Translations under genes and position numbers: made by a program
IMG/VR virus record: IMGVR_UViG_3300011125_000005
Span: 1 to 48,138 of that record
Source: a virus
Strand: one strand, 5' to 3'
Length of the DNA: 48,138 nt
In this document: positions 36,180 to 45,731 of the stretch, in pieces
Layout of the letters: every line of letters starts with the position of its first letter
How positions within the stretch are numbered: the first letter of the stretch is position 1
Notes under the pieces: model-generated
The model's input: the letters and a program-made list of their open reading frames with translations, nothing else
Told to the model about the DNA's origin: nothing
Database searches by the model: none

Positions 36180-36593
36180 TTAATTTATTTCTAATTCTAA
36201 GTCAAGTGCTTTAAATAAAAATTTCTCTTTTTCAACTATAAATAACTCTTTAGCTGCTATAATAGTATCTAATTGCGTAGGAGCAATAACATTGACTTCA
36301 CCACCTTTCCTCTCTATTACATTTATAATAGGTTGGTCATTATTAAGATATTGTATTGTTACATCCCCCTTAAGATCACTATTATCTGTACTATGTATTT
36401 TATGTCTTGTTACTATATTGAGAATGGATACATTAAAATCCCTTGTATTTCTATTTTTAATAGCTTGGTTTAAGGTATTAGAGTCAATAATTGCGTCTAT
36501 TTCTATTGTTATAGCCCCCTTTATCCTAAATTCATCTTGCTTCCCATTAAGCTGGGTTATTTCTTGTAAAAACTGTACTTCTCCCATTACCAA
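36180..36593 (-). CDS. Unknown 137-residue protein between UDG-like and RNR genes
   Basis: A soluble, beta-rich 137-residue protein with a helical C-terminus; ATG at 36593 or 36587. The start overlaps the end of the UDG-like gene by 7 nt, and the stop lies 9 nt before the RNR start, so it is embedded in the operon and probably real. Several overlapping frames on the opposite strand here are taken as shadows, because this frame fits the operon spacing. I do not recognise the family and see no motif. Confidence 0.55.
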   Translation of the reverse strand: MVMGEVQFLQEITQLNGKQDEFRIKGAITIEIDAIIDSNTLNQAIKNRNTRDFNVSILNIVTRHKIHSTDNSDLKGDVTIQYLNNDQPIINVIERKGGEVNVIAPTQLDTIIAAKELFIVEKEKFLFKALDLELEIN

Positions 36594-37285
36594 TTTATTT
36601 TAAATTCCTCTCCATTTTGTTTAGTTATGATATCATTTACTTGTGAGAAGTGGTTACAATTTTTAAACCCTCTAGTAAATGCTCCAGTTGCAGGAAAACC
36701 TGCTTCTAATATGTAATTTGATTTACTATCTATTAAAGGTTTACAACTTTGAGCAAAATTACCCCAAAGTAAATAAATTAATCCTGTTTTTTCTCGTAAA
36801 ACTTTAAATATATTAGACGTAAACGGCTCCCATAATTTAATATGAGAGTGTTGTTTATCTTTCTGAACTGTAAGGGCTCTGTTTAGTAAAAGTACTCCTT
36901 GAGAAGCCCACAAAGATACATCATTTATTTGACCTAGATGTAAATCTTGCTCCTTAAAATACACATCTCTTTCTACTTCTTCAAATATCTCTTTTACTAC
37001 AGGATGTAAAGGGTATAGTTTCTTAGATTTAAACGCTAATCCTGTAGCATGTCCTGCTATATGATAAGGTTCTATCCCAACTATTACTACCCTCACATCT
37101 TCCCATTTACATAGTTTAAATGCTTCAAACATTTCAGTACTTTTAGGCATAACTACGGAACTTTTCCTCCTTTCTAGTACTGTTTTTCTTATTGTCTCCA
37201 TATCTTCAGAAACCAGAAAAGGCCGTAGTACATTGTACCACCCCTCTCCTAATTCCTTTAGATACCATTCTGTTAATTTATTCAT
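36587..37285 (-). CDS. Family 1 uracil-DNA glycosylase fold with altered active site
   Basis: A 232-residue protein aligning end to end with E. coli Ung. Conserved blocks: 'G70-I-E-P-Y-H75' (GQDPYH in Ung), 'GLAF', 'ASQGVLLLNRALTV', 'LLWGNFAQ' and 'RGFKNCNHFSQVN' near the C-terminus. Two catalytic positions differ. The water-activating Asp of GQDPYH is Glu72. The HPSPLSAH block, which carries the catalytic His and the leucine that pushes into the helix, reads 'GFPATGAFT', so the His position is Phe197 and the Leu position is Gly. The fold is kept but classical uracil excision should be weak or absent. It overlaps its neighbours by 7 and 8 nt within the replication operon. Confidence 0.85.
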   Translation of the reverse strand: MNKLTEWYLKELGEGWYNVLRPFLVSEDMETIRKTVLERRKSSVVMPKSTEMFEAFKLCKWEDVRVVIVGIEPYHIAGHATGLAFKSKKLYPLHPVVKEIFEEVERDVYFKEQDLHLGQINDVSLWASQGVLLLNRALTVQKDKQHSHIKLWEPFTSNIFKVLREKTGLIYLLWGNFAQSCKPLIDSKSNYILEAGFPATGAFTRGFKNCNHFSQVNDIITKQNGEEFKINW

Positions 37286-38102: not shown

Positions 38103-38836
38103 CTCTCTGTTATCCTAAGTTTCGGTAACTTAGGAATATATCCTACCTCATTCTTGAAGTCCTCTGTGTTTCTTAATAAGTAAACTTGTCTAAAATTCTT
38201 TTGAAACTCATAAATTCCTACTGAGGTTGATTTAAATTTCTTACAGTATTCATTTAAAACTGTACCTCTCATCTCATCTAGTGTCTTACAAGTTGCTAAG
38301 ATATTATTAGCCTTTACTTCTCCTACTCCTGGGATTCCTTTGATATTATCTGTAACATCTCCCATTAATGTCTGCAAAAATATAAATACTGCTGCATCTT
38401 TTTTGGTGGTTTTACCTGATTCAAACTTTTTAAAGTTAAACCATGGTCCCCAAACAGATTGCAACACATCTTTATCTATTGACATATTTATAAAAGAGAA
38501 TTGTGGAGAAGCTATTGATACTGTGGTCATTACATATGCACTTAAGTCATCTGCTTCTAACCCCTCATAACTTACCCCTCCATATTTATCTCTTAAATAC
38601 TGCTTTATTTCTTCTAAATACTTCAACTCTGAAGTTGGCCTTTTCCCTTTATACTCTGTATTAACTTGATGCCTAAAATAAGGAGAGTCAGATAAAAACA
38701 TATAATAATGAGAACAATGTACTGCATTTAATGCATTACTTATTAAATCATCTACGTTATCTAAACTCTCCTGTAAGGTATCTTTACTACATATATAAGC
38801 TATAGGGTCTGCATCTATAACACCTACCTTAATCAT
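38087..38836 (-). CDS. FEN/T7 gp6-type 5'-3' exonuclease
   Basis: A 249-residue structure-specific 5' nuclease of the PIN/FEN type. 'VGVIDADPIAY' carries the first metal-binding Asp; 'YKGKRPTSE' is the arch/R-K block; 'GLEADDLSAYVM' gives the E-x-x-D-D acidic cluster; 'SIDKDVLQS' follows; and 'LMGDVTDNIKGIPGVGEVKA' combines the G-D-x-x-D-N metal site with the helix-3-turn-helix DNA-binding motif. All key residues are present. It should remove RNA primers or resect DNA ends during phage replication. It overlaps both neighbours (4 and 16 nt) in the minus-strand operon. Confidence 0.85.
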   Translation of the reverse strand: MIKVGVIDADPIAYICSKDTLQESLDNVDDLISNALNAVHCSHYYMFLSDSPYFRHQVNTEYKGKRPTSELKYLEEIKQYLRDKYGGVSYEGLEADDLSAYVMTTVSIASPQFSFINMSIDKDVLQSVWGPWFNFKKFESGKTTKKDAAVFIFLQTLMGDVTDNIKGIPGVGEVKANNILATCKTLDEMRGTVLNEYCKKFKSTSVGIYEFQKNFRQVYLLRNTEDFKNEVGYIPKLPKLRITERWEEV

Positions 38837-39888
38837 GGTACTAATGTTAATTGACGTTCCATATTTAACTGCTGTCTGAAACTAATATGCTCTTTAACCT
38901 CTAATGCTAAATCACTTAGCCACACCTTTTTCTCCTTAATACTTTTTACTTCATTAGGAATGCTTACAGTATTATATAATGAAGTTAAAATACTATCAGT
39001 AGGTATAATATCTATACCTGCTGCTACTAAAGGAGCCTTAATATGCTTTCTATAATGAGGTCTTAAGTTCTTAAACTCTGACCTTACTACATCAAATTCA
39101 GGATCTACCCATACCTCATAAACTTCAGGTAAAGGGTTTTCCTTCATAATCATACATAAGTAAACATAAGGTACAAAGTCCTTATGTAGTACAGTCTCCA
39201 TTAAAGGTCTAAGTATACGTAATTCCCTATTATGGTAAGTACGCTGTATATTGTATATACTTCCCCTGTTAACCATAAAAGCTTGAGTACGTAAATTAAT
39301 ATGATGCCATCTATATGCATGCTTATTAGATCTTATTAATTCAGCGTAACTACTACCATAATGATTAAAAGACATATCAGGTAATCCATATTCTATAGTA
39401 CCATAAATGACTTTATCAATAATGATATTTATACTCTGCCTCAGTAAGTCTTTAGCTAACTTTTCTAGGGATTGGGTACTAGCATCATCAAAATTTGCTA
39501 AGATAACTGCTTGATTTTTTTTAAATAAGCTATCTACTATACTAGCTATGTGTACATTTAATCCCCTATTATACTTCAGTAACTCAGTATAATCTGGAAG
39601 TCTTTCTATACACTTTACCATTACACGTACTAGTTTTTTGCCTATATCATGTGACATTAAAGTAGTCCTATCAAAATGTCCATAATTACTTCCAGATGTA
39701 TAAGTCCTCCTCATTTCTATAGCCATTATAGCATTTATACCATGTAAGGGTACATACTCTGCCTGCTTACTGTTATTAAGTAAAGGGATAGTTGAAGTAT
39801 TTCTACCAATACTAGGAGCATACTCATAATTTTTACTAGAATGGTTCTGTATTATTTGGCTATCAAATACTTCACGTATATCTGTCAT
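38833..39888 (-). CDS. Unknown 351-residue protein directly downstream of the E1-like gene
   Basis: A 351-residue soluble protein. Notable stretches are 'LHGINAIMAIEMRRTYT', 'HYGSSYAELIRSNKHAYRWHHINLRTQAFMVNRGSIYN' (His- and Arg-rich, about residues 176-216) and 'EVWVDPEFDVVRSEFKNLRPHYR'. I recognise no family or catalytic motif. It starts 10 nt after the E1-like gene's stop with the same A-rich initiation motif as the JAB-like gene, and overlaps the 5' nuclease gene by 4 nt. It could be part of the ubiquitin-like cassette (a target or adaptor) or of replication; the sequence does not decide. Confidence 0.5.
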   Translation of the reverse strand: MTDIREVFDSQIIQNHSSKNYEYAPSIGRNTSTIPLLNNSKQAEYVPLHGINAIMAIEMRRTYTSGSNYGHFDRTTLMSHDIGKKLVRVMVKCIERLPDYTELLKYNRGLNVHIASIVDSLFKKNQAVILANFDDASTQSLEKLAKDLLRQSINIIIDKVIYGTIEYGLPDMSFNHYGSSYAELIRSNKHAYRWHHINLRTQAFMVNRGSIYNIQRTYHNRELRILRPLMETVLHKDFVPYVYLCMIMKENPLPEVYEVWVDPEFDVVRSEFKNLRPHYRKHIKAPLVAAGIDIIPTDSILTSLYNTVSIPNEVKSIKEKKVWLSDLALEVKEHISFRQQLNMERQLTLVP

Positions 39889-39900
39889 ATTTACTATTTT
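39886..39900 (-). promoter_or_regulatory. A-rich initiation motif (AAAATAGTAAATATG)
   Basis: The ATG at 39888 follows AAAATAGTAAAT, one of four near-identical leaders of minus-strand genes (also at 42348, 47308 and 47766). It probably serves as ribosome entry site in place of a Shine-Dalgarno sequence. It overlaps the stop of the E1-like gene. Confidence 0.45.
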
Positions 39901-41148
39901 AAATTATTACTTCTTCAGCTACTACGTTAGTAGCTTGTACATTTAATAGAGGTAATTCAAAATCAATTCTGAAATCCATACTTCTAATATCTGCATTAAT
40001 ATACCTATTAGCTAGGTAATTATTTAATCCTGCTACCATTAAGGAAGCTATAAATGAACCACAATGACTTGTAGCTTTAAAAGAGCAAGGTGCATCTTCA
40101 ACTTCTGAATCAGCAAAAATCTCTGCTCTATATTGGTCCTCTTGTCCTTTTTGAACTAGAAACACCATACCTGTTTCTGCAAGCATTCTCGTGCTCTCCT
40201 ATATTTTCATATAGGCACGGACTATATCATCACCCTATTAGGGTGGAGGACGCTTTTTCAATAGGTTACTAACCCTATCTACTTCCTGTTATTAAGCACA
40301 CTTTAGTGCTCAGGTAGTCTCTGAACCTTCCATAGATGTGTCTATGGCTTGGCTGCTGATTGGCATATAAAAATACAAAAGGGCTAGTTAAACCCTTTCT
40401 AGTTTTTAGATTCTTTCTATTTGAAGTATCTCACGGCTTACCCGTATAACCTGTCAACTCTTAAGACGGAGCTAAGGGAGTCTTCTTGCTTTATTCCGAA
40501 TAATTAGCTCCTAACCCTTTGCTAATCATCTAGGGGAAGTTTTTAACCTACTACTTCCAAACGGGGGTTCCTATATGCGTATATATCTTTCACCAACAAT
40601 TAAGCGAGTTATTTTTCAACGCAATATTTTATTTCTACTTAGCTTTCCAGCAATTCATCCTCTCCACTGTTAATATTACTACTAACAGGGGCAGATTGTA
40701 TAATATACGAAAAAATTTCATATTATGCTCTACCATCTACAAATAATTCTCTATCCTCTTCAGCTGCCCACTTCTCAAACATTACTTTTCTAGCTTCCAT
40801 GTTATCAAAGCAACTAAACACTATAGGAGAATATAAAGAATCCTTTGTGTATCTACCATTTGAAGAACAACGTGTTCCTGAGAAATCTCTAATCATCTCC
40901 ATAACAGCTACTTCTTTACTTTTACCTATTGCTGAAATAGGGTAAAGTTGTCCTGCCATGTTTGTTTCATCTATTGTATCATCATCGTAGATATGGAGTT
41001 CATGGCCAATCCTGGACAGCAATAATGCTACCCAGGAACCAATACCTCCAACTCCACCTACAATAATATCTTCAGGACCAGATTTATACCAATCTGCATC
41101 ACTGAATCTTACTTTTTTATTGTCTATATTGCTGTCATTGCTGCCCAT
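39899..41148 (-). CDS. ThiF/E1-like ubiquitin-activating enzyme, split by a group I intron
   Basis: Spliced product 235 residues, from exons 41148-40732 and 40189-39899. E1 enzymes adenylate the C-terminus of a ubiquitin-like protein and pass it to a Cys. Residues 31-41 'GGVGGIGSWVA' are the nucleotide-binding Rossmann loop; 'IYDDDTID' (53-60) gives the ribose-binding acidic residues; 'NMAGQ' (63-67) aligns with the usual N-x-x-R-Q, so the Arg is replaced by Gly; Asp115 in 'SCFDN' matches the Mg-site Asp. Candidate catalytic Cys are 174 and 182 in 'CSFKATSHCG'. Unspliced, the first exon ends after 141 residues at TAA in the intron. Splicing joins Gly139 to 'RMLAETG', a sensible 'DGRM' block. 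It overlaps the JAB-like gene by 25 nt. Confidence 0.85.
40190..40731 (-). ncRNA. Group I self-splicing intron (ORF-less, 542 nt) in the E1-like gene
   Basis: On the minus strand the conserved elements occur in order: P 'GAATTGCTGGAAAGC' (about 40656-40641), Q 'AATCAGCAGCCAAG' (40361-40348), R 'GTTCAGAGACTA' (40326-40315) and S 'GATATAGTCC' (40228-40219). The 5' splice site follows the T at 40732: exon GGT plus intron AGA pair with TCTGCC near 40690-40695, placing the exon U opposite a G, as P1 requires; the ATAATAT/ATATTAT arms extend that helix. The intron ends in G at 40190, after a GTGC...GCAC closing helix. Ligation restores the E1 frame exactly. No endonuclease frame is present. Confidence 0.9.
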
Positions 41149-42350
41149 TTTGTTGTATCTTTTAAATTAGTTAATAGCATTACTTTTTTATCAAATTCTG
41201 CATCTCTATCTACATCTAAATAAACTGCTAGTACTTCAGATAGACAATTATATAAATAAGTGTCATCATATATCGTACATGTGTCTATTATTTGTAAAGC
41301 CACACAGAAAGTATCTAAATCTGTCAGTTTATTTATAGCAAAGAAATCTGCTATATAATCTTCAAAATTCTCCTCCATTTGTTCCACTAATATTTCTATA
41401 TGTACATCAGGTAACGCTGTAGCAGTTTTAAACACTTCCCCTATTCTAGCTTTAGATTGTAAATCTGCATAAGCTAGTTTAGGTAAAAAATCCATAACTG
41501 AAGGTTTACTATATAATCCTGCAGGTCTTCTTTGAATCTCTGGCTCTTTTTTGTCAAATAAAGTAGGTGTTTTACTTTTTAAAGTACCTAAAGTAGGTAA
41601 ATCCCAATCCCTAAATCCTCCATGCCATCCAGCATGGTGAGTAGATGCTCCTACAGCTCTTCCTACAGCTCTTTTAACAACTTTAGGAGTACATATTTCA
41701 GTAACTCTATCATAGAAAGGTTTAATTTCCTCTGCTAACTCTAAATCTAAATCTATAGTATACAGAATAGGAACTACTTTCTCAATAGTTTCAGTTACTT
41801 CACTACCAAATCCTAACAGGTTAAATAGAGAATTCTTAGTTCTAGTTATAGTACCAGATACTTTTTCTTCTCCTACAAATGCTACTTTAGCACACCACTC
41901 ATCAGGTTCCTTGTAGTTTACAATTAAACTTACATAGTAACTATGATTTGGTGCATTTTCATGTAACTCTGACATATCAGTACCTGAGAAGAAAGTCTTC
42001 ATATTATGGTGAGTATGGATATGACCTAATCTCTTACCTTCTGCCATAGCATCAGTATACTTATCAAAAGAGTACGTATCATCTGTATCAAAATCATATT
42101 CTGTATATGCTCCTGTACCTACATCCATAAAGATAAAATCTTCTGCTTCTAATACCCAATTAGCAGGGTTATCTATACTCCCTTCTTTGGTATTAAATAC
42201 TAAAATACCACTCCATTCTGTATTATTCTTTACTCTAGTATGTAAATAATGAATTTTCATTACTACTTCTTTACTAAGAATTAACTTAGCTTTATCTTTT
42301 ATAGGTACTACAGTTCTACTATGAACTTTACCATCATCTTTTAAACTCAT
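41124..42350 (-). CDS. JAB/JAMM (MPN) isopeptidase, deubiquitinase-like
   Basis: A 408-residue protein. The N-terminal domain (about 20-190) is a JAB/MPN metalloprotease: Glu45 in 'NNTEWSGILVF' and the metal motif H112-T-H114-x7-S122-x2-D125 in 'GHIHTHHNMKTFFSGTDMSE' fit the JAMM signature perfectly, so zinc-dependent isopeptidase activity is likely. Such enzymes cut ubiquitin-like proteins from targets or mature their tails. A His-rich link ('STHHAGWHGGF', about 236-246) leads to a C-terminal helical domain (about 290-408) of unknown role. Start ATG 42350 lies 3 nt after the E2-like gene; its end overlaps the E1-like gene by 25 nt. The order E2-JAB-E1 strongly supports the cassette interpretation. 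Confidence 0.88.
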   Translation of the reverse strand: MSLKDDGKVHSRTVVPIKDKAKLILSKEVVMKIHYLHTRVKNNTEWSGILVFNTKEGSIDNPANWVLEAEDFIFMDVGTGAYTEYDFDTDDTYSFDKYTDAMAEGKRLGHIHTHHNMKTFFSGTDMSELHENAPNHSYYVSLIVNYKEPDEWCAKVAFVGEEKVSGTITRTKNSLFNLLGFGSEVTETIEKVVPILYTIDLDLELAEEIKPFYDRVTEICTPKVVKRAVGRAVGASTHHAGWHGGFRDWDLPTLGTLKSKTPTLFDKKEPEIQRRPAGLYSKPSVMDFLPKLAYADLQSKARIGEVFKTATALPDVHIEILVEQMEENFEDYIADFFAINKLTDLDTFCVALQIIDTCTIYDDTYLYNCLSEVLAVYLDVDRDAEFDKKVMLLTNLKDTTKWAAMTAI

Positions 42351-42362
42351 ATTTTACTTTTT
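42348..42362 (-). promoter_or_regulatory. A-rich initiation motif (AAAAAGTAAAATATG)
   Basis: The leader of the JAB-like gene, shared with the genes starting at 47768, 47310 and 39888. It overlaps the last codons of the E2-like gene. Confidence 0.45.
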
Positions 42363-43523
42363 AATTTTTAATAAATATATATTAGCCTCTTTTTCTAATT
42401 GTGCTATAGCAAACTTAGTAACATAGGGATGGGCTATATGCACTATGGCTTCATTAGTATCCTCTGTATTATCCATTTCTAATACTTTTGCTTTAACACC
42501 TACTCCTTTAAAAGTAAAGAAAGGTATTTGTTTACTATTTATATTACTGATAGATCTGTTAATAGTACTTATGTTTGTAGAAGCATCAATAGTATGGATA
42601 TCACCATTACTATCTCTATATCTTATATAATTTGGGCTAAGTCCTACAGCTAATGCTACTTCTAACTCTGCTTCATTTTGTACTTTAATTGAAGGTACAT
42701 CATATGACGTATCTACAGTAAATACAGGATAAATTTCAGATTCCATACAATACCTCTTAAATGTTTGCTCTATAGCAGTAGTACCAGGACTATATGCCCC
42801 ACTACTTCCCCCTTTCATAGTGATATTTTCCATTCTCCTATAAGGACCTCCTTCTATAGATTCCCATACTACATAAGAATGTAGTATTAATAGTGCATTC
42901 TTAAATTCTTCTATATTCCATTCCTCTACAGTTAGGGTTGATACTATACTTCCTGTATCACTATCTCCTCCTAAACAAAATCTACCAAAAGAACTTATTC
43001 TAGTGCCATCATTACTGGTAATAGTTGGTAAATGGGAATGACCATATTTACTTTTAAATTCTGGATAACTATACGTACTTCTAGTACCAAACCATCCTTG
43101 TAAATGACTCATACTACTATTAAAGTACATTCTAACATATAAATCTCTTATAGTATGTATATGTCCTCTACTATTAGTTATTACAAACTCTGGAAAATGT
43201 ATAGTTAATGCAAATCTAGCAGTAGTAAGATATTTAGAATCATAATCTAAAGGGTAATCTTTAAGGGCAATAAAATCCCAATTTCCTCCATGTATTTCCT
43301 CTGCTACCTCTTTAACTAGTCTTATTCTCATTTCTAATCTAGTCTCTTTAGGTTTTGTCTTCTCTACTACAATAGGTGTAATAATAGGTTCAGGTATACT
43401 GTCTACAACTACTTCCTCCACTACTTCTGGTACACTAGGTACTGAAGTATTTTCTATTACTGTTACATTACTATCATCAGCTAATCTGGCTTCTAATAAT
43501 GCAAAGTCATCTTGTTCTGACAT
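42354..43523 (-). CDS. E2-like ubiquitin-conjugating protein
   Basis: A 389-residue protein. Residues 1-60 are acidic and Val/Pro-rich, probably flexible. About residues 65-215 look like a UBC/E2-like fold: a helix, strands 'ARFALTIHFPEFVI' and 'IHTIRDLYVRMYF', then 'YSYPEFKSKYGHSHLP' and 'SSFGRFC183LGG', the last two matching the E2 pattern of a His-containing 'HPH' loop followed by the catalytic Cys in a 'CLG' turn, and finally the helix 'EEWNIEEFKNALLILHSYVVWES'. C183 is the predicted thioester Cys. A C-terminal domain (about 230-389) is unassigned. It lies between a Ubl-like and a JAB-like gene, as E2 proteins do in bacterial conjugation operons. A terminator stands just before its start. 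Confidence 0.75.
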   Translation of the reverse strand: MSEQDDFALLEARLADDSNVTVIENTSVPSVPEVVEEVVVDSIPEPIITPIVVEKTKPKETRLEMRIRLVKEVAEEIHGGNWDFIALKDYPLDYDSKYLTTARFALTIHFPEFVITNSRGHIHTIRDLYVRMYFNSSMSHLQGWFGTRSTYSYPEFKSKYGHSHLPTITSNDGTRISSFGRFCLGGDSDTGSIVSTLTVEEWNIEEFKNALLILHSYVVWESIEGGPYRRMENITMKGGSSGAYSPGTTAIEQTFKRYCMESEIYPVFTVDTSYDVPSIKVQNEAELEVALAVGLSPNYIRYRDSNGDIHTIDASTNISTINRSISNINSKQIPFFTFKGVGVKAKVLEMDNTEDTNEAIVHIAHPYVTKFAIAQLEKEANIYLLKIKK

Positions 43524-43543
43524 ATTATAATTTTTAAGTTAAT

Positions 43544-43569
43544 AAAAAAGGGGAGCATAAGCCCCCCTT
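43544..43569 (-). terminator. Intrinsic terminator between the Ubl-like and E2-like genes
   Basis: On the minus strand a 9-bp stem (43569-43561 with 43556-43548, one G-U pair), loop TTAT, runs into six Ts (43549-43544). It begins 6 nt after the Ubl-like stop and ends 20 nt before the E2-like start. It should reduce transcription of the enzymes relative to the modifier. Confidence 0.85.
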
Positions 43570-43575
43570 ATATAT

Positions 43576-43872
43576 TTAAATGCTATCTCTAAGAGCACGT
43601 AGTTTTGCAACCATTGCTTCTTGGTGGGCAGTAATTTCATCACTACCACTTTTCACCTTACCAGGTGTAAGGAAAAGAATAACATCTCCTGTAGGTAGCA
43701 TTGCTGCATCACTATCAAGTGTCATCTTTGAAACCTTCTCCATAACTTTCATATCAGAAATACTGATACCGTTATTTTCTAATTCAGGTTTTAACTCTCC
43801 CCATGTAGTTGCACTTGAATTTAATTCTTTTTTCCCGTCAATCTTAGTTGATACAATTGTAATTTTTCTCAT
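43576..43872 (-). CDS. Candidate ubiquitin-like (beta-grasp) modifier
   Basis: A 98-residue protein. Strand 'KITIVST' and a hairpin 'IDGKKEL' precede the helix 'TTWGELKPELENN', then 'KVMEKVSKMTL' and 'LPTGDVILFLTPGKVKSG', in the order of a beta-grasp Ubl (beta-beta-alpha-beta-beta). About 22 residues after 'VKSG' extend beyond the fold, and there is no terminal Gly-Gly, so a tail cut by the JAB enzyme, perhaps at the Gly, is possible. Its place at the head of a Ubl-E2-JAB-E1 array is the main support for the call. It begins 1 nt after the preceding gene and is followed at once by a terminator, suggesting high relative expression. Confidence 0.65.
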   Translation of the reverse strand: MRKITIVSTKIDGKKELNSSATTWGELKPELENNGISISDMKVMEKVSKMTLDSDAAMLPTGDVILFLTPGKVKSGSDEITAHQEAMVAKLRALRDSI

Positions 43873-44114: not shown

Positions 44115-44206
44115 AAGCAGTAATATTTAATTAACTTTCATTTAATTTTATAAATATTACAATTACATAACTTTAAGTCGTCCCTTACTTACAGTTATTA
44201 CTGCTT
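44115..44206 (-). repeat. Long-range 11-bp inverted repeat downstream of the RusA-like gene
   Basis: AAGCAGTAATA (44115-44125) has its exact complement at 44196-44206, overlapping the stop of the RusA-like gene; on the minus strand the second arm is followed by a T-rich run. It could close a large hairpin that ends the transcript or protects its 3' end. Confidence 0.5.
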
Positions 44207-45731
44207 AAATTATTTTGATAGTAAACACCAGTTTTCTATCTTCTTCATTTTCAACCCAGTGATATCTTTTTCTACCACTTTCTAATACATAATCAGGGTC
44301 ATCCCCTGGAATTACTTTACACTCTTGCAAAGAATCCTCAAAGAACTTCTCTAGTAGCCACATATTAGACACATCAGGCATAGTTCTACGTCTTATTTCA
44401 TATATATCACATGAAATAGATAGATACTTACCTTCAGGTATAATAATAGGTTTCTTAAGTTGTGCTTTGATGTATTTAGAAAAATAAGTATGGTAATATT
44501 TAGCCACGGTTTTACGTAAACGCCAATTTAAAGTAGCATTATATAACATTTTGTTATCGTGCTGGCTCTTTATCCTGCACTTCTATATGTTTCCATATAG
44601 TTCAGACTATATCATCACCTCCACATGAGGTGCTATGCGCTCTTGGTACTTTACTATCTCCAACTTAATGCTGAGACTCCATGTACTAGTCGTTGAACCT
44701 TGAACTCATTTCTGAGAGCCTTGGCTGCTGATTGACATACAAAATAATAAGCTGTTCTTTCCAGGTTAGCATAAACAGAGCGTAACCATTCCCAGCATCT
44801 GTCACTTATTATTTCACTTAGTGTTCCAGCAATTCACATAGTTTATTCAGGACCTATATAAATAACTTATATCTCATAGATTCTATAACATAAGGACTAA
44901 TAGTAGAAGTAAATAATTCTTTAGATTTACTTCGGATATATATCATATTACTTTGCGGTTGCAAAGTTGTTTCAATATTAAATTTATCTTTAAGTAATTT
45001 TCTTAAGAAATTATTTTCTTTCCTAGTAAAAGATTGAGTACATAACAGATATCCAGAAATTGTTTTAGCTCCATCATCCATAAACCATATGGCTAATCCT
45101 AAAGCATTCATTTTCTGTATAGTACTTCTATGTACAATCTTTTTCTTGTTTTTGTAAAAAAGTTCTCTATATTCAGTAAATATAGGATTCGTCTTACTCC
45201 GAAACCTATACTCTTCAATAAATCCCTCTTTATACCTATCATTAACTATCTTATTGTAACAAAGTTTACCAGCTAATTCTTTTTCAGCTAATATACTATG
45301 TTTATATTCACAATACTCTTTTTGTTTAGCACTGTGAGCTATAGATAATCTTGAATTTTTCAATGTATGTGATATTTTATCTAAATATCCATCTCCTAAC
45401 ATTGATCCTATTATAAGTTGTTCTAATTTTTCCATATACAAATATAGTTAAAATCTGTATACTTTCAAACTATTTGTGTTTAATCCTGACCGTTCATTAC
45501 CCAAAGATTAGGTTTTCCTGCAGTTTTGGTATTTTTAAGAAACCTTTCCTCTAAATCATTACAGCAATACGCTTTACCTCCTATAATTAGAGGGGTGCGT
45601 CTTAAGTTTTCTGTATGCTTTATTGGTAATTTTTCTCTTTCTGTCCATAGCCAATACTTAGGCATTCTTTTTGCAGATTTCTGGTAGCTGCTTTCCCATT
45701 CAGGAATCACTACTTCATAACTTCCCAACAT
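44205..45731 (-). CDS. RusA-like Holliday junction resolvase, split by a group I intron
   Basis: Spliced product 200 residues, from exons 45731-45482 and 44557-44205. RusA-type enzymes cut branched DNA during recombination and packaging. The C-terminal exon carries 'RRRTMPDVSNMWLLEKFFEDSL' and 'VIPGDDPDYV', the R-x-x-P-D-x-D/N-N and late Asp-Asp pattern of the family. The first exon ends in 'NLWVMNGQD' and splicing adds Tyr and 'NKMLYNATLNWRLRK'. Unspliced, it would stop at TAA (45482-45480). The start at 45731 overlaps the primase gene by 22 nt. One Asp of the usual catalytic set reads Ser-Asn ('DVSN'), so confirm activity. The split-gene model is well supported by frame and P1 pairing. Confidence 0.8.
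44854..45435 (-). CDS. LAGLIDADG homing endonuclease encoded in the intron
   Basis: A 193-residue protein starting at ATG 45435; an in-frame TTG two codons earlier is less likely. Two LAGLIDADG helices are visible: 'LIIGSMLGDGYL' (residues 7-18) and 'LGLAIWFMDDGAK' (about 112-124), each with the catalytic acidic residue, so it is a single-chain two-motif enzyme. Such enzymes cut intronless alleles of their host gene and so spread the intron; some also help splicing. It sits inside the intron of the RusA-like gene, is transcribed from its own promoter 4 nt upstream, and ends just before the intron's catalytic core. Confidence 0.88.
   Translation of the reverse strand: MEKLEQLIIGSMLGDGYLDKISHTLKNSRLSIAHSAKQKEYCEYKHSILAEKELAGKLCYNKIVNDRYKEGFIEEYRFRSKTNPIFTEYRELFYKNKKKIVHRSTIQKMNALGLAIWFMDDGAKTISGYLLCTQSFTRKENNFLRKLLKDKFNIETTLQPQSNMIYIRSKSKELFTSTISPYVIESMRYKLFI
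45439..45469 (-). promoter_or_regulatory. Bacteroidota promoter inside the intron (TTTG-N19-TATATTTG)
   Basis: On the minus strand TTTG (45469-45466) and TATATTTG (45446-45439) are spaced by 19 nt, the full consensus. The -7 box ends 3 nt before the endonuclease ATG, so the message would be leaderless or nearly so. The 18 bases TTTAACTATATTTGTATA also occur at the promoter of the giant polymerase gene. Confidence 0.7.

Follow-up and report, generated by a model that had tools for sequence, protein, structure and literature searches.

A four-gene cassette of crAss-like phages predicted to encode a ubiquitin-like conjugation pathway

Does a phage carry its own pathway for tagging proteins with a ubiquitin-like modifier? 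The question is raised by the partial virus record IMGVR_UViG_3300011125_000005, whose 48,138-nt stretch was analysed at full length (the window). Four genes run along its minus strand from 43872 down to 39899, in the order ubiquitin-like protein (Ubl, 98 aa), E2-like protein (389 aa), JAB peptidase (408 aa), and E1/ThiF. A first-pass annotation, made from the sequence alone, had read them as a conjugation cassette, and the list of open reading frames (ORFs) agrees with it on the positions and strand of all four genes. The residues it had singled out are correct as well, namely the FCLG motif with C183 in the E2-like protein and E45, H112, H114, S122, and D125 in the JAB protein; an HSH motif at residues 162-164 of the E2-like protein can be added. 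The four genes make up a kit that resembles the ubiquitin protein-tagging pathway, and they would probably serve to tag proteins during infection. Two features were absent from that annotation: an intron in the E1 gene and a C-terminus of the Ubl that resembles that of a precursor.

The window belongs to a crAss-like phage. A 93-kb record contains a twin of the cassette locus (L003), with which the window shares 5200 nt of identical sequence around the cassette. The record also has a capsid gene, and its product and the crAss001 capsid protein are 43% identical (E = 2e-112). Therefore, the phage is crAss-like, as the first-pass annotation had proposed. A crAss001-type capsid was matched in five of the eight records tried and was not matched in the partial window record. 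The window primase matches 130 phage records, of which, by name, 51 are uncultured, 31 are Bacteroides phages, and 29 are Flavobacterium phages; crAss001, phi14:2, Fpv phages, and many cr-numbered phages are among the matches listed.

The same four genes recur widely among relatives. With the E1 protein as query, tblastn matched 78 of 50,697 phage records. A search with the crAss001 E2 matched 74 records, with the same counts by organism name apart from four jumbo-phage records, which are matched by E1 only. Eleven of 12 annotated loci carry the four genes in order, those of the Flavobacterium Fpv phages included. In PhiCrAss001, the cassette corresponds to gp79, gp78, gp77, and gp76, annotated as hypothetical, hypothetical, metalloprotease domain, and thiamine biosynthesis protein (ThiF), respectively. 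The twelfth locus, in the jumbo Xanthomonas phage PhiXhv-12, has a recognisable E1 alone. There (L015:5214-9464), the related E1 has as its neighbour a protein of 892 aa for which Pfam gives nothing above cut-off, and E2, JAB, and Ubl are not recognisable. From IMG/VR, 304 relatives were confirmed and 80 of them were taken into the analysis. Counting the window, a piece of the window (L001), and the twin, all four genes are present in 86 of 95 sources. In the non-redundant set, which includes the window and the 12 annotated phages and drops L001, L003, and sequences more than 90% alike by a simple string ratio, 74 of 81 E1 loci have the four genes on one strand in the same order. The other seven comprise two loci cut by the contig end (L043 and L071), one jumbo phage, and four in which a Ubl was not detected. 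The cassette is missing from part of the group, with a crAss001-type capsid in 115 phage records and the E2 in 74. With a cellular origin in mind, genome contigs were scanned once for the cassette, which gave three loci (L096, L097, and L098); L096, binned as a Clostridium metagenome-assembled genome, is plainly a crAss-like phage contig with the entire cassette.

The Ubl gene lies at 43576-43872 (-). Its product matches phrog_15560 (E = 7e-15), a PHROG family without assigned function, and nothing above cut-off in Pfam, NCBIfam, or PADLOC; against PDB sequences it gives only rows with E values of at least 0.1. The first-pass annotation had called this protein beta-grasp-like, and the AlphaFold2 (AF2) model, built on a 46-sequence alignment, is indeed predicted to be a ubiquitin-like beta-grasp (predicted local distance difference test score, pLDDT, 82.8; predicted template modelling score, pTM, 0.55). 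The model is superimposed on ubiquitin (1ubq) with a Z score of 8.7 and a root-mean-square deviation (rmsd) of 2.4 over 70 aligned residues, and on TINCR with a Z score of 9.5 and an rmsd of 1.9 over 69 residues. Foldseek rows, the best with E = 2e-4, include SUMO, ubiquitin, NEDD8, and ISG15. Residues 2-75 of the model align with residues 1-76 of ubiquitin. Therefore, Gly76 of the window Ubl is positioned no more than one residue from Gly76 of ubiquitin, in the part of the model that is least sure (pLDDT 62 for the block 71-80). As modelled, the Ubl is a beta-grasp domain with a glycine at its C-terminal end.

Gly76 is invariant in 46 of 46 aligned Ubls, the alignment covering 46 of the 63 listed non-redundant Ubls. 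Each of the 74 non-redundant Ubls has a Ser-Gly or an Ala-Gly at the end of its beta-grasp, and in none is that glycine the last residue. The glycine is followed by exactly one residue (K, R, F, E, I, or H) in 12 Ubls, by 2-5 residues in six, one of which (L010) is interrupted by an HNH gene, by 21-24 residues in four, among them the window Ubl with its 22-residue tail, and by more than 50 residues in the remaining 52, for an overall range of 1-213. The tails were scored from the nearest Ser/Ala-Gly, with the alignment as an independent check, and L053 was reassigned by eye (AG plus one residue). Concealed glycines are a mark of ubiquitin-family precursors. The C-terminal layout of the Ubls, a novel observation here, suggests that the Ubl is made as a precursor for the JAMM peptidase to trim, and the alignment and tail lengths place the predicted trimming and conjugation site of the window Ubl at Ser75-Gly76 (codons 43645-43650). 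A hidden glycine and a JAMM peptidase in the same operon would give the JAB gene a clear job and predict the exact bond that is cut.

The extensions behind the glycine have features of their own. In cr106_1 (L010:2761-3964), the HNH endonuclease gene stands right after the Ser-Gly of the Ubl, and the C-terminal extension seemingly resumes in a separate ORF. One member of a Ubl alignment (A1) has a ribosomal L7/L12 C-terminal domain in its extension (E = 5e-12); the match list does not name the member, which from its sequence we guess to be that of cr126_1 (L016:3320-4246). Many Steigviridae extensions share a 'KNxTQCxTxDL' segment and a 'SEIDDMF'-like C-terminal tip, both missing from the short window Ubl.

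The E2-like gene (42354-43523, -) encodes a protein whose predicted UBC-like core spans approximately residues 60-222. The AF2 model from 69 sequences (pLDDT 82.2, pTM 0.73) has a helix at residues 62-78, strands up to residue 151, and a long loop with H162, H164, and C183, followed by helices. Among the 50 rows listed by VIA-align, which were classified from their titles and have Z scores of 5.0-6.0, 47 are UBC, UEV, or RWD chains, FTS being counted by us, as an assumption, as UEV-like; the top row has a Z score of 6.0 and an rmsd of 3.9 over 119 aligned residues. The predicted catalytic cysteine, C183 (codon 42975-42977), the glycine at +2, and the second histidine are each present in 78 of 78 aligned non-redundant loci, with one locus gapped. 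C183 is invariant in the 69-sequence alignment, L036 and L037 included, and the gaps of these two loci in a wider alignment are alignment gaps. The first histidine is more variable (present in 75 of 92 of the redundant set). Neither the window protein nor 13 phage members have a Pfam match above cut-off, and Prok-E2_D does not recognise them. There is no sequence match in the PDB; NCBIfam and PADLOC give nothing above cut-off for the window protein, and the PHROG family that it matches has no assigned function.

The JAB/JAMM metallopeptidase gene is located at 41124-42350 (-). The protein scores 24.1 bits with PF14464 (E = 3.6e-5), just under the cut-off of 25, and matches the PADLOC model JAB (E = 3e-5). 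Its JAMM motif, H112-x-H114-x7-S122-x2-D125, is encoded at 41976-42017, and E45 at 42216-42218. The motif is conserved throughout the non-redundant loci, with the glutamate and both histidines in 79 of 79 and the serine and aspartate in 78 of 78 aligned. In one relative (L039:5980-6216), a group I intron (63.8 bits) with an endonuclease-like gene adjoining interrupts the JAB gene just after the HxH of the motif.

The last gene had been annotated as coding for a ThiF/E1 Rossmann protein. The ThiF match (PF00899) stands, but the gene is more than one ORF, being split by a group I intron. Exon 1 (40732-41148, -; 139 codons) overlaps the end of the JAB ORF and matches PF00899 with E = 4e-12; exon 2 (39899-40189, -) carries the predicted catalytic Cys174 (codon 40085-40087). 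Both exons match phrog_15670, at positions 7-126 and 148-222 of its 228. The intervening 542 nt (40190-40731, -) match the group I intron model of Rfam, RF00028, at 40198-40714 with 64.6 bits (gathering score 50) and contain no ORF of at least 50 aa on their own strand; a repeated AGA leaves the intron boundaries uncertain by 3 nt. Joined, the exons encode 235 aa with one ThiF match. In L002, whose E1 is 78% identical to that of the window, the gene is uninterrupted, and its junction DNA, GTAGATGGTAGAATGCTTGCAG, is an exact match to the joined window exons. Recoded stop codons, considered as another explanation of the gap, are ruled out, as the gap contains many stops and matches a group I intron. 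A search of eight loci with Rfam at the gathering threshold found none, even in L003, whose intron is that of the window, so this zero carries little weight. The E1 lysine and aspartate are present in 81 of 81 non-redundant loci and the cysteine in 80 of 80 aligned, the sole gap being the exon-1 entry of the window. Against the PDB, the E1 profile matches UBA5 best (2.5e-14) and also MccB, Cap2, and BubCD. The window has a second group I intron (44583-44899, -; RF00028, 91.2 bits), which together with a LAGLIDADG endonuclease (44854-45441) interrupts a RusA-like resolvase gene (45480-45731 and 44205-44549) that is whole in L002.

The recurrent four-gene order, together with the nearly invariant catalytic residues, is more than chance. 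The first-pass annotation had named two outcomes that would speak against it, folds other than beta-grasp and UBC, and a lack of this gene linkage in relatives; neither was observed, and the search that it had suggested, for the same gene order in related genomes, is answered by the 74 of 81 loci. We consider it likely that the cassette encodes a complete Ubl conjugation pathway, with a precursor Ubl, trimming and reversal by a JAMM enzyme, an E1, and an E2. By analogy with the homologous families, from which trimming, thioester transfer, and conjugation are all inferred, the pathway would run as follows. The Ubl would be made as an inactive precursor, from which the JAMM peptidase would remove everything that follows the conserved Ser-Gly (Gly76 in the window). 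The E1 would adenylate this glycine and either load the Ubl on Cys174 or hand it on. The E2-like enzyme would receive the Ubl on Cys183 and join it to lysines in one target protein or several, and the JAMM enzyme could undo the conjugation. With less certainty, we propose a role in host takeover or counter-defence during the early or replication phase.

Several observations weigh against this reading. The E2-like Z scores are all below 8, the caution line of VIA-align, and three Mediator chains appear among the listed rows at 5.3-5.5. Foldseek with the E2-like model is weak, with Mms2 as the best match (E = 0.16), and hhalign of the E2-like protein with PRTRC B reaches 4.6%, covering the Cys motif (C-x-G) alone. 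The crAss001 E2 matches the Flavobacterium phages weakly (E = 3e-3, 34% covered). In four of the 81 loci, the Ubl is undetected beside E2, JAB, and E1, and one jumbo phage has the E1 alone. The usual E1 motif is N-x-x-R-Q; the phage E1 has N-x-x-G-Q, the glycine being found in 89 of 93 phage loci, and the arginine is invariant in eight PRTRC ThiF proteins. Finally, with long extensions behind the glycine in 52 of 74 Ubls, the Ubl domain could work within a larger protein. The UBC fold that had been expected for the 389-residue protein thus agrees with the order of the elements and with structural matches mostly of UBC type, but the scores are low (Z scores of at most 6.0; best Foldseek E value 0.16). 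Because the structural and profile scores are low, we call the E2 assignment, and with it a UBC-type fold, probable on the joint basis of motif, context, and modelled fold.

The genomic site bears on the role of the cassette. Nine annotated relatives share one arrangement, namely primase, Ubl, E2, JAB, E1, one gene, and uracil-DNA glycosylase (UDG), with an extra HNH gene in cr106_1; in FpV4 the glycosylase lies upstream, and the annotation of DAC15 is too sparse for the order to be read. In the window, the primase is likewise upstream and the UDG downstream of the cassette, with more intervening genes than in the relatives. The window UDG (36590-37285, -) is divergent, matching PF03167 with E = 1.4e-7 and otherwise only phrog_12143. 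The gene directly downstream of the E1 (38833-39888, -; 351 aa) is kept in near relatives only. A hidden Markov model of the window and L002 versions finds matches beside the E1 in a subset of loci, and the window and crAss001 versions are unmatched (hhalign probability 0.1); a fifth conserved cassette gene was rejected, the gene being conserved within sub-groups. Three Steigviridae whose names are not among the E1 matches were compared at the primase-UDG interval. The interval of cr116_1 contains, by annotation, an rIIA-like gene and two 'protector from prophage-induced early lysis' genes; in Pfam, the first has a sub-threshold HATPase match and the other two have none. That of cr108_1 contains ATP-grasp, COOH-NH2 ligase, Peptidase_C26, glutamine amidotransferase, and amidoligase genes (Pfam, above cut-off), and that of phi14:2 is annotated with gamma-glutamyl cyclotransferase, S6-glutaminyl-transferase-like, COOH.NH2 ligase, Gn_AT, and amidoligase genes. 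In cr53_1 of the Suoliviridae, a resolvase comes after the primase; the stretch of cr110_1 that was examined has no annotated primase. Unrelated modules thus occupy the interval in three sister phages, and these three replacements suggest that modules for takeover or counter-defence may be exchanged there. The T4 rII genes defeat the lambda Rex exclusion. It is conceivable, though we hold this tentatively, that phages of Steigviridae type and their kin tag proteins reversibly by a pathway of their own, and that the interval is a place where phages trade Ubl conjugation, amidoligase/ATP-grasp ligases, or rII-like genes for one another. The first two, unrelated systems that would both make amide bonds, and the third would then be interchangeable means of modifying or disarming one and the same host function.

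Could the same chemistry be directed instead at the replication or transcription machinery of the phage itself, as core regulation rather than counter-defence? The cassette lies among primase, UDG, ribonucleotide reductase, and exonuclease genes on the replication strand, and group I introns, which usually reside in strongly conserved genes, are found in the window E1 and in the JAMM core of L039. The unrelated modules between the same flanking genes in the three sister Steigviridae indicate that the cassette is not universally needed for replication. We regard this alternative as rather unlikely; since close relatives have the cassette replaced, takeover or counter-defence seems to us the better account of its role.

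Two further readings were weighed. If the JAMM enzyme and the Ubl mainly undid or sponged host conjugation of the Bil or CBASS (cyclic-oligonucleotide-based anti-phage signalling system) type, the phage's own E1 and E2 with conserved active-site cysteines would be superfluous, and we think this improbable even though the hosts include Bacteroides, in which the available portion of one study reports a Bil-like system (PMC12135933); deletion of that system, according to the same portion, left assembly of the phage studied unchanged. Alternatively, the E1 and the Ubl could deliver sulfur as a ThiS/MoaD-type module, with the JAB trimming the carrier. The E1 is indeed named 'thiamine biosynthesis protein' in records, and carriers of this kind with a JAB partner exist, as the available text of Iyer 2006 (PMC1779556) describes. 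An E2-like gene with the conserved cysteine, however, adjoins in 79 of 81 loci, the others being L043 at its contig end and the jumbo phage. Rhodanese and class V aminotransferase were found in none of 10 phage records (controls 13 of 14 and 14 of 14), of which some are fragments, and host enzymes could supply the sulfur. With the E2 present and these enzymes absent from the 10 records, thiamine biosynthesis or another sulfur transfer was rejected as the main account, and we give a sulfur-carrier module very little credence.

Most of what is known of ubiquitin-like conjugation in bacteria comes from plasmid cassettes and from defence against phages. In the present case, an apparent whole pathway is owned by a virus, in a lineage with PhiCrAss001, a cultivable gut-phage model of a very abundant group. 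Genes labelled hypothetical, metalloprotease, and thiamine biosynthesis gain testable functions, and the Ubl C-terminus leads to an exact biochemical prediction. Searched by term, the main texts of Yutin 2021, Shkoporov 2018, and a jumbo-phage review do not describe the cassette. A description was not found in the open-licence literature on crAss-like phages and ubiquitin or ThiF, and may exist elsewhere. Iyer 2006 (PMC1779556), in the text available, treats bacterial operon types with these parts and a phage tail Ubl, and a phage cassette of this kind is not described in that text.

How does the cassette compare with known systems? PRTRC, also borne by a mobile element and with an accepted Ubl-E2-JAB-E1 set, is the closest. 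In Sphingobium (L103), its order is Prok_Ub (C), an extra gene, Prok-E2_D (B), Prok-JAB (A), and ThiF, the phage order plus one gene. The PRTRC ThiF and the phage E1 are clearly homologous (hhalign 99.1%, E = 8e-19), although the exon-1 ORF of the window alone scores 39.5 with TIGR03736 against a cut-off of 144.75. PRTRC A and the phage JAB, compared with two PRTRC A sequences only, give 46.7% (E = 2e-4) over the JAB core and have an FFSxTD core in common; the DUF2016 domain of PRTRC A was not found in the phage JAB. PRTRC C and the phage Ubl, compared as profiles from small alignments, could not be aligned (hhalign probability 0.1), and 12 phage members have no Prok_Ub match; homology to PRTRC is thus not demonstrable for the Ubl or the E2-like protein. 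ParB (PF02195), to which PRTRC owes its name, is found in none of 10 phage records, the 93-kb twin included (controls 10 of 14).

The Bil system consists of a Ubl, an E2, a JAB/JAMM deubiquitinase (DUB), and an E1, and BilC trims BilA to expose its C-terminal glycine; its order, Ubl-E2-DUB-E1, is that of the phage cassette, as far as the available part of the Bil report goes (PMC11354881). By that account, BilA has two ubiquitin-like domains, whereas the 98-aa phage Ubl has one beta-grasp in the model, and BilD has an inactive and an active adenylation domain and a Cys domain, whereas the joined phage E1 is a single domain of 235 aa. The CEHH motif given there for BilB (C138, E144, H146, H151) has D189, G191, and T196, at equal spacing behind C183, as its window counterparts, and the conserved histidines precede C183. 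Bil, moreover, is a bacterial anti-phage system, and the present cassette is carried by a phage. As for type II CBASS, the window E1 and JAB distantly match the PADLOC models 'E1-E2' (E = 2e-7) and 'JAB' (E = 3e-5), which we take to be Cap2 and Cap3, and the phage E1 profile matches Cap2; yet the phage E1 and E2 are separate genes rather than an E2-E1 fusion, the cassette encodes a dedicated Ubl, and the SMODS nucleotidyltransferase (PF18144) is found in none of 10 phage records, with controls of only 3 of 14. Membership in Bil, PRTRC, or CBASS was therefore rejected, the cassette lacking at least one of the defining features tested for each.

Two more distant parallels can be drawn. Lambda-type tail assembly also has a phage-encoded Ubl with a glycine and a JAB peptidase; there, the operon is structural, with TAPI, TAPK, TAPJ, and NlpC/P60 domains, and the available text of PMC1779556 does not name an E1 or E2 in it. 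In the eukaryotic UFM1 and ATG8, one or two additional residues conceal a single C-terminal glycine. Among PDB entries, UBA5 is the closest to the phage E1, an analogy in which shared ancestry is evident only at the superfamily level. Judged from sequence, the cassette would work like PRTRC, its nearest kin, with which it may share ancestry, and it appears to be a new form of bacterial ubiquitin-like conjugation, one that is owned by phages and is widespread among the crAss-like group.

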